From Prevotellaceae bacterium (GTDB lineage Bacteria > Bacteroidota > Bacteroidia > Bacteroidales > UBA932): a DNA stretch of 34,572 bases. The DNA lies in the NCBI GenBank assembly GCA_031280885.1, contig JAITGD010000008.1, forward strand, positions 1 to 34,572, written 5' to 3'. The position numbers and the translations under genes were made by a program. Positions 12,822 to 29,300 of this stretch are shown in pieces. Numbering within the stretch: position 1 is the first letter of the stretch; every line of letters begins with the position of its first letter. Below the pieces are notes generated by a model. The model saw only the letters and a list, made by a program, of their open reading frames with translations. It ran no database searches and was not told the origin of the DNA.

Positions 12822-12835
12822 ATACTTTTTTTGGA

Positions 12836-12900
12836 CTTTTAGACTTTTGGACACTTGGACTTTATTAGACTTTTGGACTTTTAGACTTTTGGATTGTTAG
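12836..12900. repeat. GGACTTTT / AGACTTTT microrepeat tract
   Basis: About six or seven degenerate copies of a ~10-base unit, TTGGACTTTT or TTAGACTTTT. The tract ends in GTTAGATGTATGTGTTATTTT, nearly the same tail as the tract at 15943-16022. Confidence 0.75.
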
Positions 12901-12934
12901 ATGTATGTGTTATTTTTATAGATAGACGTATTTC

Positions 12935-13593: not shown

Positions 13594-14268
13594 ATGATGA
13601 TTGATAGAAAATATAAACAGAATGATTGGCATAAAGCGGTGAAAATCTGCATCTACTATTTCAGCTTCCTTGCTGGTTCGAGGCTATGCCAAAGCTTTTC
13701 GAGATGCTTCAAAAGTACATCGAAATCGAGGTTTTCTGCTTTCGGCAGCATCAAATATATACTGATTTACTCGGTTAAACTCATAAGATCGAATAAAAGT
13801 AAGATCAAAAAAAGAGCAATAAATAAGTCGAATCCTATAAATCTATATGTTTCCGAAAGGAAATATCCTCTGAAAATGCTTTTGTATGCCATACGTAACA
13901 GCGCCGCAATCGTTGGCACGGTTATGTATGGCATACGCGGCGGCGTCAAATCCGTCGAGAAGGTAATGTATAGCATACATGATTGTGCCAAATCTACGGG
14001 AACACCTTTGTATAGCGTACGCGACTGTGCCGAATTTGTTGGGAGACTTTTATATGGTATATGTTGCTGTGCCTACGCTATCGGGAGACCTTTGTATAGC
14101 TTACATTACTGCGCCGAATCTGTCGGGAGACCTTTGTATGGCATACGCGACTGTGCCAAGTTTGTCGGGATACCTCTGTATAGCGTACGCGACTGCACCG
14201 ACGCTATCGGTAGCCCTCTGTATGGCATACACGACTGCTCCAAAATTTTTCGGCATACATATATATAA
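13594..14268 (+). CDS. Uncertain protein: basic N-terminus plus nine 14-aa tandem repeats
   Basis: An open frame of 224 codons with its own promoter. Residues 1-96 are basic and Cys/Ser-rich with no recognised domain. Residues about 97-222 are nine 14-residue repeats, LYGIRDCAKFVGxP in consensus. The repeat period is exactly 42 bases, so the frame is never broken. Several changes between units are silent or conservative in this frame (tgt/tgc for Cys, ttg/tta/ctg for Leu, ata/gta/tta, ggg/ggt/gga for Gly). However, a second frame (LCIAYATVPNLSGD repeats) also shows silent changes at Pro, Leu and Ala over most units but is stopped at 13964, and the minus strand is open too. So it may instead be a DNA- or RNA-level repeat. 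I do not recognise the protein. The next gene begins 41 bases after its stop and is probably on the same transcript. Confidence 0.4.
   Translation: MMIDRKYKQNDWHKAVKICIYYFSFLAGSRLCQSFSRCFKSTSKSRFSAFGSIKYILIYSVKLIRSNKSKIKKRAINKSNPINLYVSERKYPLKMLLYAIRNSAAIVGTVMYGIRGGVKSVEKVMYSIHDCAKSTGTPLYSVRDCAEFVGRLLYGICCCAYAIGRPLYSLHYCAESVGRPLYGIRDCAKFVGIPLYSVRDCTDAIGSPLYGIHDCSKIFRHTYI
13882..14260. repeat. Nine exact-period 42-bp tandem repeats
   Basis: The TGTATGGCATAC-like core starts at 13883, 13925, 13967, 14009, 14051, 14093, 14135, 14177 and 14219, every 42 bases without a slip. Units are diverged from each other but keep TAT-R-GC-ATACGCGACTGTGCC and GTCGGGAGACCT blocks. There are no unique spacers, so it is not CRISPR. 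Confidence 0.92.
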
Positions 14269-15313: not shown

Positions 15314-15961
15314 ATGATTTATCTTAGCAAAATTGTTCACTCCGCGCCGGTCAAAAATATTATTTTCGACCTTGGCAATGTTATTTTGAATATAGATTAT
15401 TGGCGAACTATCGATGCTTTCAAATCTTTAGGCGCCGCAGATTTTGAATCGCTTTACACACCGCTTGCACAGAAGGGTTTCATCGATAAGATGGATAAGG
15501 GTATGATTACTCCGGCTGAGTTTCGCGAAAGTTTGCGATCAGAAGTACCAGCATTGCGCGGCGTCAGCGATGATAATATCGACGCAGCATGGAACGCAAT
15601 GCTGCTCGACCTTCCTAAATCGAGGCTCGATATACTTACAGAACTGAGACGCAATTATAGTTTATTCCTGTTGAGTAATACAAATGAAATCCACGTTGCG
15701 CATTTCGACCGAATTGTAGATGAAGTAATCCCCGGAAAAAAGATGAGCGACTATTTCGACAAAGTTTACTACTCCAACGAAACGGGGATGCGCAAACCTG
15801 ATGCTGAAATTTACGAGCTGGTAATTCGCGAGAATGGTCTGAAAGCAGAAGAAAGCCTATTCATCGACGATCTGCAGGCCAATATAGATGGTGCAAAGAA
15901 GGTCGGACTGCAAACTTTCCTTATGGAAAATGGAAACTTTTGGAGATTTTTGGACTGTTAG
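15314..15961 (+). CDS. HAD-superfamily phosphatase (YihX-like, subfamily IA)
   Basis: A 215-residue HAD hydrolase. Motif I is IIFDLGNVILNIDY, where the second acid of DxD is Gly, as is normal for the YihX / glucose-1-phosphatase branch. Motif II is LFLLSNTNEIH, motif III SNETGMRKPDAEIY and motif IV SLFIDDLQANIDGA. A helical cap lies between motifs I and II. It probably removes phosphate from a sugar phosphate or similar small molecule in the cytoplasm; the substrate is unknown. The last ten or so residues (NGNFWRFLDC) are encoded by the start of the GGACTNTT microrepeat tract, so the natural C-terminus may have been altered. It converges on sppA across a strong hairpin. Confidence 0.9.
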   Translation: MIYLSKIVHSAPVKNIIFDLGNVILNIDYWRTIDAFKSLGAADFESLYTPLAQKGFIDKMDKGMITPAEFRESLRSEVPALRGVSDDNIDAAWNAMLLDLPKSRLDILTELRRNYSLFLLSNTNEIHVAHFDRIVDEVIPGKKMSDYFDKVYYSNETGMRKPDAEIYELVIRENGLKAEESLFIDDLQANIDGAKKVGLQTFLMENGNFWRFLDC

Positions 15962-16022
15962 ACATTTGGACTATTGGACTATTGGACTATTAGACTTTTG
16001 GACTTTCTAATGTATGTATTAT
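15943..16022. repeat. GGACTATT / GACTTTT microrepeat tract
   Basis: Roughly six copies of a ~10-base unit (TTGGACTATT, exact in the middle). It begins inside the last codons of the HAD gene and ends in TTCTAATGTATGTATTATTTT, nearly the tail of the tract at 12836. Confidence 0.78.
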
Positions 16023-16045: not shown

Positions 16046-16106
16046 AAGACAGAGGCAGCGAGTATGACGGAGATAAAAACTCTGTCGGACTCGCTGCCTC
16101 TGTCTT
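16046..16106. terminator. Bidirectional terminator with 17-bp perfect stem
   Basis: AAGACAGAGGCAGCGAG (16046-16062) pairs exactly with 16090-16106, and the loop contains a second GACGGAG/CTCTGTC stem with one G-U. It lies between the convergent HAD and sppA genes. Confidence 0.8.
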
Positions 16107-16146: not shown

Positions 16147-17907
16147 CTAATCGATTTCGATGTTATAAGACATTCTTGCCATTATACCTACGCGGCTCAC
16201 TGCGCTCGATATGTATTCGTAGTGCCTCAAGGCGCGTTGCAGTTCTTTTTCGGGAGCTTTCTCTCGAATATGCGTGCCGAGAAGGGACATAATTTTTTCG
16301 AGCGAGCTTTGTTCACGTGGCAGGTCTATGGTGCGATAATTCGATATACCGGCTCTTTCGGCTGCAAGCGCTACAGCTTCAGTCAGCCCTCCAATACGAT
16401 CGATAAGAGAGTTATCCAAGGCATTTTCTCCGCTCCATACACGTCCTTGTCCGATGCAATCGACTTCTTCGGGCTTGAGATGTCTGAATTTCGATACCTT
16501 ATCGATAAATTTCGAGTATATATCTTCGATGGTTTTTTGTAGCCTGTTTTTTTCCGTTTCACTCAAAGGTCTGTATATTGATACATAATCGGAATACTTG
16601 TTTGTTCCAACGACGCTTACGTTTAGGCCGAGATTTTCGTTCATAGCTTTCTTCAAGTTTGGAGCCATGCCGAACACTCCGATTGAACCGGTGATAGTAG
16701 TACGATTGGCTACTATAGCTTCGGCGGGGCTTGCAATCCAGTATCCGCCCGAAGCCGCAAGATTTCCCATCGACACAATAACCGGTTTTATCTGCTGTGC
16801 AAGTTCGAGTTCGCGTGCAATAATCTCCGATGCTAAGGCGTCGCCTCCGGGCGAGTTGATTCGGAATACTATTGCTTTAACGGCCTTATCTAATTTAGCC
16901 TGCCGGATAGCCTTAGATATATCCACCGACATCACTCCGCTGGGTCCTTCGCCCCGCGCTATCTCTCCCGAAGCGTATATTATCGCTATTTTATCTTCGG
17001 AATACTTAGCTGTGGTCGATGGACTGTGTGCATAATCGCTTATTGCTATGTATCGCAGATCGCTTTCCGAAGCCGATTCGGTATATTTGCATAGTTCGGA
17101 GACAAGCTCGTCTTTATAAATCAGCTTATCGATGAATCCCCTATCCACTGCGGCCACAGCCGTAGATGGTTCCATGAGGTCTGCAAGTCGGTTCAGCTCA
17201 TCGATGCTTATATTCCGTTCAGAGCTGATAGCCTGCAGCATGGTATTCCATATCGAACCCATATATACCGATATTTGTTCTCTGTTTTCCGGACTTATTT
17301 CGGTCATAGAGAAAGGTTCGACGGCGGCTTTAAACTTTCCATGCCGCAGTATCTGCATTTCGATTCCGAGTTTATCCATCAAACCTTTGTAGGACATTAT
17401 TTCGGAGCTTAGCCCGATAAAGTTTATTTGCCCGTGCGGATTCATGTAGATCTTGTCGGCAATTGTAGCCAGATAGTAAGCCTTTTGCGAAAATTCATCA
17501 GCGTATGCTATTACGAATTTGCCCGACTGCTTGTAGGCTACAATTGCGTTTCGGATTTCTTCGACCGTCGCAATTCCGGCCTTCACATCGTTAAGGTCGA
17601 GGTATATTCCCTTGATTCGGGGGTCAAAAGTAGCCTTTTCGATACCGCGCAGAATGTTGTTGAGGCCGTCAGGCATGTTAATAGTACCGGTCAGCGGGTC
17701 TAAGTACGACAAAGGATTCGACGCTTCCCTGTCCTCCACCTGTTTGTTAAGGGCAATTTTGAGTACAGAGTTGTCTCGCAGATCAACGGGCTTAGAACCA
17801 GAGAAGTCGGCAACCGAAATAATTGCTACGAGCAGGAAAAATCCCACAAAGGAAATAATTACGATGCCCGCGATAGTAGCGAGCATCATCTTAAAGAATT
17901 GTTTCAT
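16147..17907 (-). CDS. sppA: Signal peptide peptidase SppA, 67K type
   Basis: A 586-residue double-domain SppA anchored by an N-terminal membrane helix (about 9-34). It is a membrane serine protease using a Ser-Lys dyad to digest cleaved signal peptides. The Ser is in GNLAASGGYWIA (S386). The Lys is in HGKFKAAVEPF (K193), matching the E. coli K209 context GTYKSAVEPF. RINSPGGDALAS and TGSIGVFGM are also present. Length equals the tandem-domain family. It is the third gene of a unit with the Ig protein and the histidine kinase, 22 bases after the kinase stop, an association that suggests an envelope-stress role, though that is inference. Confidence 0.94.
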   Translation of the reverse strand: MKQFFKMMLATIAGIVIISFVGFFLLVAIISVADFSGSKPVDLRDNSVLKIALNKQVEDREASNPLSYLDPLTGTINMPDGLNNILRGIEKATFDPRIKGIYLDLNDVKAGIATVEEIRNAIVAYKQSGKFVIAYADEFSQKAYYLATIADKIYMNPHGQINFIGLSSEIMSYKGLMDKLGIEMQILRHGKFKAAVEPFSMTEISPENREQISVYMGSIWNTMLQAISSERNISIDELNRLADLMEPSTAVAAVDRGFIDKLIYKDELVSELCKYTESASESDLRYIAISDYAHSPSTTAKYSEDKIAIIYASGEIARGEGPSGVMSVDISKAIRQAKLDKAVKAIVFRINSPGGDALASEIIARELELAQQIKPVIVSMGNLAASGGYWIASPAEAIVANRTTITGSIGVFGMAPNLKKAMNENLGLNVSVVGTNKYSDYVSIYRPLSETEKNRLQKTIEDIYSKFIDKVSKFRHLKPEEVDCIGQGRVWSGENALDNSLIDRIGGLTEAVALAAERAGISNYRTIDLPREQSSLEKIMSLLGTHIREKAPEKELQRALRHYEYISSAVSRVGIMARMSYNIEID

Positions 17908-17929
17908 GATTTTAAATGGTATTTAATTA

Positions 17930-19723
17930 TTACAAATTTGCTGAGAAGTGCTTTTGTTCGCCGTGTTTACTAAGTATATTGAAGTTGCGAGGCGCAGTTT
18001 CGGCCGGCAGCGCAAGGCGGAATGTTGTGCCTTTTCCAAATTCGCTTTCAAAGTCAATATTACCTTTGCAGGCAACTGCAAAATCGTGGCACAGAGCAAG
18101 TCCTAATCCTGAACCGGTCTCCATGTTAGTGCCTTTACTCGATTTCACATCCGTAGTAAAGATCTTAGCTTTCAGTTCATCCGACATACCGTTACCGGTG
18201 TCGGCGATACTCCATATAAGCATATCGTTTTGCATTTTGCTTGATATTGTGATTTTGCCGTCCTGCGGCGTATATTTTACAGCGTTCACTATCAGATTTC
18301 GGACGATTATGCTTACCATTTCTTTATCGGCATAAACTTCGGCGGTATATAGGCGATTATCTACGTCGATATTTTTATCGTGGAGGTGCGTACCGGCTAT
18401 CTTTAATGCTTCGGCGGTGATGATTGCCAGGTCGATATTTTCGGGCGAATATACTATTCCGTTCATTTGATTTTTTGCCCAATACAGCATATTTTCGAGC
18501 ATTTGGAAAGTGCAGTTTAGGCTTTCATCTAATTTGACGAGCTGCCGCTCGAAAGTTTCCTTAGGCAAAGAGCCTGATCGGAGTATCTGGACGAGTAGAT
18601 GTATGCCATTGAGGGGTGTACGCAGGTCGTGCGAAAGGATTGACAGCAGTTTTGTTCTGATTTTATTTTCTTCCACAAGTCTCTGTTTCTGTTTTGATAT
18701 TGTATCGTTGCGTTCCTTCAACATTCGGTTCAATCGCTGATTTCTGCGGAGAGTAGCCGCCACATATACGCTGAATATGATAGCTATTACAAGGGCTGCC
18801 AGAATGAAGAGGTTCATTTTTCGTTCATGTGCAAGTTCACGCTCGGTTTTTTGCCGCAGTAGCGTATTAAGTTCTTCTTCCTTAGCGAGGACGGCGAGTT
18901 GCAGTTCAATTTCGGTAGCTTTTTGGAGCAGCTCTTTGTTTGCCGATTCATAACGGTTTAGTTCTGACTGTTTCTCGAAGAGTTCTTTTTCTTTGAGTTT
19001 TAGTTGCACCTCTCGATTTTCTTTTTCCGACTGAGTTAGTTCGATGTCATGCTGAATCTTATCGAAGGCCGATTGAAGTTTTTGTTCTTTGTCCTTCTGC
19101 AAATTATCGACCGTAGCTTTGTAGTATTCAAAGTATTGGAGCATCGCTTTCCTGTCTCCTTTGAGTTCGTATGTTTCAGCCAACATTCCGTAGCAGACAC
19201 GAGTATTGTTTTTGTCGTTTATATCGGAGGCATATTTTAGAGCTTCATTGAGTTGCACGATAGCCTCGTCGTGTCGCAGCAGTTTATTCAACACCACAGC
19301 GACATTAATTTTCGCGTTGATTATTCTTGCTTTTTCGTTTTCGAGTTCGCGGGCGTCGAGCGTCTTTTGCATGTAAGACAGCGATGTGAGGTAATCGCCT
19401 TTGTCGGCGTATATCATACCGAGGTTGCTTTCAATTCCGGCGATAGCGTTGATGTTATTTAGTTGTTTATTCAGGGTCATCGATCGTCGGTACAGTTCGA
19501 TAGCCTTGTCGTAGTCCTTATTTTCCCAGAGGAAATATGCGGCAGCGTTTAAGAAAGATGTAGCGTCTCTTAACGAGCCATCTTTTTCAAGTTCATTTGC
19601 TTTATCCGCGCATTGTTCGATGGTATAAGTAATTCCATTTACCTTAACTTGGGCCTTTGCAGCCGTTGTAATCGAGATAATTAAGAGTACCGCTTGAAGT
19701 AGTTTCGGTATCGTATGTGTCAT
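17930..19723 (-). CDS. TPR-containing membrane sensor histidine kinase
   Basis: A 597-residue protein with a signal peptide (1-24, ending AAKAQ), tetratricopeptide repeats (about 35-220), a charged coiled coil (about 215-300), one membrane helix (303-325) and a kinase core. The phospho-acceptor is in SILSHDLRTPLNG (H365); the N box is NLIVNAVKYTPQ (N476/N480), G1 is DTGNGMS (508-514) and G2 is GSGLGLAL (537-544). So a periplasmic TPR sensor is linked to a cytoplasmic HisKA/HATPase, with no receiver domain. No response-regulator gene lies in the window, so the partner is encoded elsewhere. The start is two bases after the stop of the Ig protein gene, implying coupled expression. Confidence 0.94.
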   Translation of the reverse strand: MTHTIPKLLQAVLLIISITTAAKAQVKVNGITYTIEQCADKANELEKDGSLRDATSFLNAAAYFLWENKDYDKAIELYRRSMTLNKQLNNINAIAGIESNLGMIYADKGDYLTSLSYMQKTLDARELENEKARIINAKINVAVVLNKLLRHDEAIVQLNEALKYASDINDKNNTRVCYGMLAETYELKGDRKAMLQYFEYYKATVDNLQKDKEQKLQSAFDKIQHDIELTQSEKENREVQLKLKEKELFEKQSELNRYESANKELLQKATEIELQLAVLAKEEELNTLLRQKTERELAHERKMNLFILAALVIAIIFSVYVAATLRRNQRLNRMLKERNDTISKQKQRLVEENKIRTKLLSILSHDLRTPLNGIHLLVQILRSGSLPKETFERQLVKLDESLNCTFQMLENMLYWAKNQMNGIVYSPENIDLAIITAEALKIAGTHLHDKNIDVDNRLYTAEVYADKEMVSIIVRNLIVNAVKYTPQDGKITISSKMQNDMLIWSIADTGNGMSDELKAKIFTTDVKSSKGTNMETGSGLGLALCHDFAVACKGNIDFESEFGKGTTFRLALPAETAPRNFNILSKHGEQKHFSANL

Positions 19724-19725
19724 TA

Positions 19726-21408
19726 TCAGAAGTCCCCTGTTTGAAAGTTAAATTCTTTTACTGTTTCGTTGCCAACTGCGTCTTTTGCTTTCACTTTGAT
19801 ATTATATTCTTTCTTCGGACGGAATCCTTTTATCGGGCTGCTATACGGTATTTCTGCGGCTCCGTTTATTGAGTATAATATTTGTGATACTGTTGTAGTC
19901 GAGTCGGTTGCAGCGAGGAATATCGCCACATATGACGGGTATAGTATTCCGTCGGGTTCGGCGCTGTATCTTGTAGTTATTTCGGGGCCTTCGGAATCGA
20001 TATACAGGTTCAGTTTCTTTTCGTTACGGTTATTAACGTTGTCGTAGGCAATACATATAACTTCGTAAGCATCGTTTCCTTTTGTTGGCTGTTCTATTTT
20101 AAATGGATGCAGATATTCTTGTTCTTCTCCGCCGTCGATTGTATAGGCCAATCGATTCAGTCCCGATTCGTTGTCTTTTCCACTGATGATTAATTTGGTG
20201 TTTCGACTGATGTAGATACGGTCTTTTTTCTCGAATGAAGGTCCCTCGCATTTAAATTGTATAGCAGGGCCTAATAAATCGACGTATATCACGCCTTTTG
20301 ATTGCAGTATTTCACCCGATCCGGTGTTGTCTGCTTCGTCGGTGGCATAGTATTGAATGGTGTATAATCCAGCCTTGTCGGGCATGTAGAAAGGTTCGAG
20401 ATACTTTTCCGGAGCCTTATTATTTATGCTGTATTTCAAATATTTGATTCCTGTTCGGTTGTCGATAGCGGTAATCTTCACCTTAGTCCTTCCCGATAGA
20501 TATATTTTGTCATCGACCACAAATTTATCTCCCAGAATGTCAATCGAAGCAATGGGGGCGATTTTGTCGAGGAAAAAATCGACAGTCTGCTTTGTTTCTC
20601 TGTTTCCTGTATTATCTATCGACCAGTAATGCAGCAGATGTTCACCGGTTTCAAGATGTGCAAAGTTGATTTCCTTCCCGTTGTACAATTTTTCGCTTTC
20701 ATCATCGAAGGCATAATAAGTTGCGGCTACACCGCTATTTTCGTCTTCGGCCGTCAGATAGATGTGCGACGACGAGGAAAGTACTTGTCCCATTGCTACG
20801 CCGATGAAATTATGGAAAGTTTTTGGTGGACGCGCATCGATAAAAATTTTGTATCTCTTTGGCGCTTCGATATTCCCGACCTTGTCGGTTGCGTAGTATA
20901 GCAAAATATGTTCGCCGTGCTTATCGAGCGCGAAGGTTTCATTGATTTCGGAGTAATTTTCGCCGTCCAGCGAGAGGAAAATCTTGCTCACACCCGACAT
21001 TTCGTCCTTAGAAAAGATGTTGCAGGCAAAATCAAGGCCATAATACATTGTTCCGCTTTTGTTCCGATAAGTTGAACTATTTGGCGAAAGTTTCAAAGTC
21101 GAGACCGGCGCATGTCCGTCGGCATGAATCTTATAGACGTCCACTCGCTTGTGAATATCGTCCATGTGTCGAATATGATGCACCCCGTGTCCGTCGAGTA
21201 AAATCGGATTTACCTCCGTACCCCGTTCTTCGCGCAGAGCCGTTCCTTTGCCATCGAGCGAATGGGAAATGAAAAGATATACGGGCAAATCGACATGTTG
21301 ATAATAATATTTGCCGTCGGTGAACGAGCTTTTTTCTGGTTTTATTTGCTCTTGAGCAAGGCTCGTTATCCACAGAAAACAAGCTGTAAATATCAGAAAT
21401 ATACGCAT
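19726..21408 (-). CDS. Exported multi-domain Ig-like protein
   Basis: A 560-residue protein with signal peptide MRIFLIFTACFLWITSLAQ, placed by using the ATG at 21408; the ORF-track start at 21444 is a TTG inside the promoter box. After a unique N-terminal part it has about five Ig-like modules of the OmpL47 / beta-hexosaminidase C-terminal sort. Each carries ISGxDxxSGLxxLxYxIDG-like and YYATDKVGNIE-like strands (examples: YYATDKVGNIEAP, HYWSIDNTGNRE, YYATDEADNTGSG). No lipobox, T9SS or enzymatic motif is seen. It is the first gene of the unit with the histidine kinase and sppA. It might be a periplasmic or cell-surface binding partner for the kinase, but this is inference. Confidence 0.85.
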   Translation of the reverse strand: MRIFLIFTACFLWITSLAQEQIKPEKSSFTDGKYYYQHVDLPVYLFISHSLDGKGTALREERGTEVNPILLDGHGVHHIRHMDDIHKRVDVYKIHADGHAPVSTLKLSPNSSTYRNKSGTMYYGLDFACNIFSKDEMSGVSKIFLSLDGENYSEINETFALDKHGEHILLYYATDKVGNIEAPKRYKIFIDARPPKTFHNFIGVAMGQVLSSSSHIYLTAEDENSGVAATYYAFDDESEKLYNGKEINFAHLETGEHLLHYWSIDNTGNRETKQTVDFFLDKIAPIASIDILGDKFVVDDKIYLSGRTKVKITAIDNRTGIKYLKYSINNKAPEKYLEPFYMPDKAGLYTIQYYATDEADNTGSGEILQSKGVIYVDLLGPAIQFKCEGPSFEKKDRIYISRNTKLIISGKDNESGLNRLAYTIDGGEEQEYLHPFKIEQPTKGNDAYEVICIAYDNVNNRNEKKLNLYIDSEGPEITTRYSAEPDGILYPSYVAIFLAATDSTTTVSQILYSINGAAEIPYSSPIKGFRPKKEYNIKVKAKDAVGNETVKEFNFQTGDF

Positions 21409-21441
21409 GCTTTTTACTAAAACATTACTAAGTTTCGTGTG

Positions 21442-21449
21442 CAAAGTTA
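21442..21449 (-). promoter_or_regulatory. -7 promoter box (TAACTTTG) of the Ig/kinase/sppA unit
   Basis: TAACTTTG on the minus strand, 34 bases before the ATG at 21408. It is the mirror of the tmk box at 21461, with 11 bases between. Confidence 0.65.
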
Positions 21450-21460
21450 ATTATTCCTTT

Positions 21461-21468
21461 TAACTTTG
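21461..21468 (+). promoter_or_regulatory. -7 promoter box (TAACTTTG) of tmk
   Basis: TAACTTTG, 30 bases before the tmk ATG at 21499. It is back-to-back with the minus-strand box, so the upstream elements of each promoter overlap the other. Confidence 0.65.
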
Positions 21469-21498
21469 CCCTGTAAAACATGTATAAATTTACAATTC

Positions 21499-29121: not shown

Positions 29122-29300
29122 GTGTGGCAAGCGAAGTCCGTGTGTGGAAACTGCGCCACACTGTGTGGCACGAAAACCTCGCGTGTGGAAATCGCGCCAC
29201 ACTGTTTGGCGCAAAAACCCCACGTGTGGAAATTACGCCAAACAGTGTGGCGCAAAAACCCCGCGTGTGGAAATCGCGCCACACTGTGTAGCGATAAAAT
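29122..29300. repeat. 41-bp tandem repeat array with internal hairpins
   Basis: GTGTGGAAA recurs at 29142, 29183, 29224 and 29265, exactly 41 bases apart, with a partial unit before. Each unit carries a GCGCCACAC / GTGTGGCGC-like hairpin. Since 41 is not a multiple of three, the unit is read in a different frame each time, which explains the overlapping ORF-track hits in several frames and argues against coding. Confidence 0.9.

Follow-up and report, generated by a model that had tools for sequence, protein, structure and literature searches.

TPR-headed sensors are abundant in Bacteroidota. In the YycH-WalK and CpxP-CpxA pairs, the membrane sensor is considered to be gated by a second protein, which is exported or anchored. 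According to excerpts of the published account of FimS from Porphyromonas gingivalis, the ligand of this TPR kinase is unknown, the authors suggest that it is a polypeptide, and mutagenesis pointed to the TPR motifs (PMC11053733). The SiaABCD proteins of Pseudomonas aeruginosa form a partner switching system (PMC7647112), while OmpL47 of Leptospira has been reported to be surface-exposed (PMC4183468).

Here we describe a locus of a Prevotellaceae bacterium in which an exported Ig-repeat protein is encoded beside a TPR sensor histidine kinase. The window, the whole stretch of DNA that was analyzed, comprises 34,572 nucleotides, and the following features are referred to by their positions within it.

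19726..21408, minus strand: gene of the Ig-repeat protein, 560 aa, with OmpL47-type domains, exported
17930..19723, minus strand: gene of the TPR sensor histidine kinase, 597 aa, assigned by Pfam, motifs and AlphaFold
18749..19663, minus strand: part of the kinase gene that encodes the extracytoplasmic sensory half (TPR and coiled coil), used in the reverse search of 393 genomes and the mirror-tree analysis
16147..17907, minus strand: sppA, gene of a 67K-type signal peptide peptidase, 586 aa (TIGR00705)
21441..21469, no strand assigned: perfect inverted repeat GCAAAGTTAA-N9-TTAACTTTGC bearing TAACTTTG on both strands, the two copies being candidate −7 elements for divergent transcription of tmk (plus) and the Ig operon (minus)
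16046..16106, no strand assigned: predicted hairpin terminator between sppA (minus) and a HAD-hydrolase gene (plus), with 27-nt arms that are 89% complementary

Gene layout and transcription signals

The three genes occupy exactly the span given in the initial annotation, 16147-21408, all on the minus strand, with gaps of 2 nt between the Ig and kinase genes and 22 nt between the kinase gene and sppA. Upstream, tmk diverges from the Ig gene on the plus strand across a 90-nt gap that holds a perfect 10-bp inverted repeat. The promoter consensus of Bacteroidetes at −7 is TAnnTTTG, which TAACTTTG fits; its minus-strand copy lies within the repeat at 21442-21449. The palindrome at 21441-21469 looks like a pair of overlapping divergent promoters for tmk and the Ig operon. 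A box scan found no TAnnTTTG on the minus strand of the kinase gene, and the hairpin 3' of sppA has a predicted stability of −45.9 kcal/mol (z −11.8). With a box in the palindrome upstream, none within the kinase gene and a hairpin after sppA, transcription of the Ig, kinase and sppA genes as a single unit is plausible; the single promoter proposed earlier thus stands as a prediction from these signals.

Several repeats occur elsewhere in the window. Two arrays of an 8/16-bp unit (TTTTGGAC / AGACTTTTGGACTATT), at 12829-12901 and 15944-16006, flank three genes: ORF 13594-14268, a DUF6261 gene and the HAD-hydrolase gene. ORF 13594-14268, which matches no Pfam family, contains a 42-bp repeat array of 6.5 copies (13967-14244). 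A 41-bp repeat of 3.8 copies with 82% matches lies between larger ORFs at 29138-29293.

The Ig-repeat protein and the sensor kinase

The description of the first gene product as an exported chain of Ig-like modules is borne out by its domain matches, its Sec signal and its predicted structure. The NCBIfam OmpL47-type domain NF047446 matches five stretches of the protein with 213 bits (cutoff 40 bits), while the score against the Leptospira OmpL47 equivalog NF047441, 157 bits, is below the 250-bit cutoff; all 27 aligned family members match both. AlphaFold models a chain of all-beta domains, Ig-like sandwiches, with a pLDDT of 86.7. By sequence, a profile of the family matched no solved structure, and Foldseek placed Ig-rod proteins such as GhpA nearest to the model. 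Family members typically measure ~560-580 aa. Among 110 full-length relatives, nearly all carry a Sec/SPI signal followed by Q, at most two show a lipobox-like motif, and 109 are free of a membrane segment past residue 40. Both the Ig protein and the sensor have Sec/SPI signals that end before Q, in agreement with the Q-rule of Bacteroidetes signal peptides (PMC5837995).

The kinase is likewise as first described, with an exported TPR sensor and no receiver. Pfam identifies TPR_12, HisKA and HATPase_c and detects no receiver domain in the kinase or in the products of its two adjacent genes. From the N terminus, the protein consists of a signal peptide, a TPR head (helical repeats at residues 35-188), a long coiled coil, a single membrane helix (residues 305-323) and a DHp/CA core. 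The HisKA phospho-acceptor histidine and the N, G1 and G2 boxes of HATPase_c are present, and the motifs are SHDLRTPL (364), NLIVNAVKY (476), DTGNGM (508) and GSGLGLAL (537). The AlphaFold model (pLDDT 82.5) is matched in Foldseek by HK853 (E 8e-18) and, through the kinase core, by a WalK-YycH model. The best NCBIfam match is FimS (NF053520), at 168 bits under a cutoff of 600.

Linkage of Ig protein and TPR sensor across Bacteroidota

In the window, the Ig gene adjoins a TPR sensor gene on the same strand. A search of 393 genomes from the order to which the window belongs found full-length relatives of the Ig protein in 80 (~20%), and named records with relatives include Cytophagales, Saprospiraceae, Carboxylicivirga, Reichenbachiella, Marinoscillum, Flammeovirga and Chlorobi-type MAGs. 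The scan of named contigs depended on a 9-row Ig alignment, which yielded 94 relatives, of which 80 were kept; the window protein alone yielded none. A phylum-wide profile search recovered at least 6 genomes, fewer than the named-contig scan suggests, which is probably a matter of sampling, and no frequency was taken from it.

Among the 87 well-flanked Ig loci, in which two or more genes are present to either side, 62 have a TPR sensor gene on the same strand within three genes, 53 of them as direct neighbor. The background, 0 of 141 more distant genes of these loci adjoining a TPR sensor, is small and gene calling was by longest ORF, so the ratio is indicative, yet the direction of the effect is beyond doubt. 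Adjacent pairs are tightly spaced (median gap 13 nt; 30 nt or less in 46 of 65), and the linked sensor combines a TPR head outside the cytoplasm with a single membrane helix. The pair is both real and old. The neighborhood survey suggested by the initial annotation accordingly shows an association that recurs across the phylum and is not confined to this genome. No description of the pairing was found in searches of open-access literature, which is not proof of novelty.

Two observations count against a partnership. The first is that 25 of the 87 well-flanked loci lack a nearby TPR sensor; at one locus (L204:3376-7335), a Reg_prop/Y_Y_Y/GAF/SpoIIE sensor takes its place, preceding the Ig gene at a distance of 569 nt. 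The second comes from genome G019 (L022, G019:C87 2050-2474), where only N- and C-terminal fragments of the Ig gene are left (residues 8-72 and 486-559, with a stop) and the adjoining kinase, which shares 48% identity with that of the window, is intact, suggesting that the kinase may survive there without the Ig protein unless the fragmentation is a MAG artefact.

The sensor output is exchangeable

Typing of the linked sensors with separate histidine kinase (HK) and SpoIIE profiles gave SpoIIE/PP2C output at 52 loci, HisKA/HATPase at 18 and neither at 5, some of which are cut by contig ends. Pfam bears out three sensor forms: SpoIIE, SpoIIE with a receiver, and HATPase. On the Ig tree, the output changes between HK and SpoIIE at least six times while the pair persists. 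The proposed association of the Ig protein with a kinase therefore holds for the TPR sensor and not for the kinase as such, most loci encoding a SpoIIE/PP2C phosphatase.

A SiaC-family protein (PF09345) is encoded within four genes of the Ig gene at 20 loci, 16 with a SpoIIE-type sensor, 4 to which no sensor was assigned and none with a kinase. This small neighbor, cl2, had been considered a CheY receiver on the basis of its length, an assignment that was rejected. Neither SiaB nor SiaD was recognized among the neighbors that recur at Ig loci, in what was a survey of recurrence rather than a family search. Loci of the Saprospiraceae type have genes for a STAS protein and an RsbW-like HATPase ahead of the Ig gene; in L145, L155, L162 and L187 they lie immediately upstream of it, with a TPR-SpoIIE sensor gene following in L145, L155 and L162 and the contig edge in L187. 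PP2C output with a SiaC or STAS substrate, seen in these relatives, is absent from the window locus.

Two Reichenbachiella loci, L151 and L169, encode Ig-linked TPR sensors of only 456-465 aa. That of L151 has no Pfam output domain and, by eye, a DHp-like tail; the output of these short sensors is possibly kinase-dead or a phosphotransfer function. At four further loci (L021, L078, L082 and L084), the genes of the SpoIIE sensor and the long Ig protein are separated by one for an extra protein of ~310 aa with weak Ig similarity. An OmpA domain was present in all three of these proteins that were scanned (L021, L082 and L084), which hints at a connection to peptidoglycan in those SpoIIE loci only.

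Co-evolution between the Ig protein and the sensor's TPR half

The TPR/coiled-coil half of the window kinase, searched alone against 393 genomes (E ≤ 1e-20), matched 55 other genomes, 53 of which have an Ig gene (Fisher p 4e-43, with kinship ignored). The strongest matches lie closest to Ig genes: within 6 kb are the top 10 of 10, 18 of the 20 best and 42 of 73 overall. When sensors of HK and SpoIIE type were aligned together, all 11 invariant columns fell within the sensory half.

Patristic distances of the Ig protein were then compared with those of the two sensor halves, the output half serving as a control for shared descent because it belongs to the same polypeptide as the sensory half. 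In 49 SpoIIE-type loci, the Ig protein correlates with the sensory half at r=0.735 and with the output half at 0.273 (95% bootstrap interval of the difference 0.31-0.58). The corresponding values for 18 HK-type loci are r=0.826 and 0.561 (interval 0.05-0.48). Between the two sensor halves themselves, the correlation (r 0.23 in SpoIIE-type and 0.54 in HK-type sensors) is lower than that between the Ig protein and the sensory half. Frequent exchange of output domains may itself lower the control correlation, contributing to the contrast and weakening it as an argument for partnership. The Ig protein stays with the TPR half through output exchange, and the tree distances are the strongest evidence that, as judged from sequence comparison, the relation is functional and probably physical.

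Role of the Ig protein

Since the Ig protein co-evolves with the outer half of the sensor even though the inner half changes, we consider it probable that this protein serves the neighboring TPR head as a dedicated partner outside the cytoplasm, either as ligand or as co-receptor. SppA is regarded as a passenger. The earlier proposal of the Ig protein as ligand or partner to the kinase thus receives strong support from the recurrent linkage and from co-evolution with the TPR half specifically. In such a model, the Ig protein and the sensor would be exported by Sec/SPI, and the Ig rod, whether periplasmic or positioned at the outer envelope, would bind the TPR head and thereby act as the input. 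Whether the rod is bound, free or displaced by a presumed outside cue would be signaled to the cytoplasmic output by way of the coiled coil and the single membrane helix. Here that output would be the histidine kinase, acting with a presumed, unlinked response regulator on putative target genes; in most relatives it would be the SpoIIE/PP2C phosphatase, acting on switch proteins of the SiaC or STAS type. The Ig-TPR pair would then be a detachable input for both two-component and partner-switching pathways. More tentatively, rod and head could form a detachable cartridge in which the rod, as a link from the outer envelope or peptidoglycan to the sensor in the inner membrane, reports the state of the envelope, an extension that we regard as doubtful.

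The main alternative, itself unlikely, casts the Ig protein as the output of the sensor, an adhesin-like rod of the envelope or surface whose amount is sensor-controlled without contact between the two. Autoregulated targets commonly sit beside the genes of their regulators. The reported surface exposure of OmpL47 in Leptospira (PMC4183468) agrees with this possibility, as does the finding that the closest folds, GhpA among them, are Ig-rod surface proteins. A regulated target, however, should not track the sensory half better than the fused output half does, and the pair persists through changes of output pathway. Moreover, the two genes lie mostly in one tight unit, an arrangement in which a separately regulated Ig target is less natural. 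These results favor the Ig protein as partner of the TPR head.

That the pairing merely preserves gene order by descent, with no functional meaning, is highly improbable. All loci belong to related lineages and some flanks are common to close relatives, but flanking genes otherwise differ among distant loci, and gene order flips at least seven times on the Ig tree (111 aligned relatives) while the pair persists. In addition, neither an Ig gene (E ≤ 1e-3) nor a close relative of the kinase (E ≤ 1e-60) was found in 12 genus mates, suggesting at these thresholds that the pair is gained and lost together.

SppA is a passenger

The product of the third gene is an ordinary SppA of the 67K type, with 457 bits against TIGR00705 (cutoff 311) and two Peptidase_S49 stretches. 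One copy is present in each of 36 of 37 searched genomes, and the 12 genus mates all have it. In the set of 118 distinct Ig loci, sppA accompanies the Ig gene in the window only (0 of the 117 others). In genomes G019 and G020, the two nearest relatives and family members that have the Ig-kinase pair (with a decayed Ig gene in G019), it lies on another contig, next to a gene that we take, from reading its sequence, to be pgk-like; its neighbors also differ in the genus mates. A near-universal single-copy gene that is unlinked to Ig at 117 other loci is best judged a chance neighbor on the predicted transcript, outside the conserved module, and SppA was rejected as a functional member, contrary to the initial annotation. 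The secretion-stress role proposed there, or one in signal-peptide quality, finds no support either, because SppA joins the Ig operon in this genome alone. A three-gene envelope-quality or secretion-stress module, with signal-peptide clearance by SppA being monitored by the Ig-kinase pair, has in its favor the one apparent transcript common to all three genes here, but is very hard to reconcile with linkage at 1 of 118 loci, near-universal occurrence and varying neighbors.

Comparison with known systems

The closest solved fold to the Ig protein is the grappling hook protein GhpA of Aureispira, also a tandem Ig-like rod (Foldseek E 1.3e-10), but GhpA is thousands of residues long and identity is ~10%. 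With OmpL47 of Leptospira (NF047441/NF047446) the window protein has its repeat type in common, yet it scores 157 bits where 250 are required and is modeled by AlphaFold as Ig-like sandwiches, not as a membrane barrel.

On the side of the output, SiaABC is the nearest known pathway to that of the SpoIIE-type relatives, which combine a PP2C output with a SiaC-family protein at 20 loci; SiaABCD differs from the window, where the sensor is a kinase and no SiaC is nearby. FimS, of the FimS/FimR system, resembles the window kinase in its periplasmic TPR, coiled coil, membrane helix, HisKA/HATPase and lack of a receiver. It differs in that the window kinase reaches 168 of the required 600 bits and has no adjoining regulator, and the excerpts of the FimS account mention no Ig partner (PMC11053733). 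As FimS, the best-known TPR kinase, is without a known ligand, the pairing described here makes an open question testable: the Ig family is a concrete candidate ligand for TPR sensors that can be studied in cultured non-pathogens.

By analogy, the Ig-sensor pair resembles YycH-WalK and CpxP-CpxA, where an accessory protein is considered to gate the sensor. The folds are unrelated, and here an Ig rod and a TPR head form one pair that is combined with two output chemistries. Accessory extracytoplasmic partners of sensors are already known; what is unusual here is the exchangeable output. If the model is correct, one extracellular input module is common to two chemically different signaling systems.
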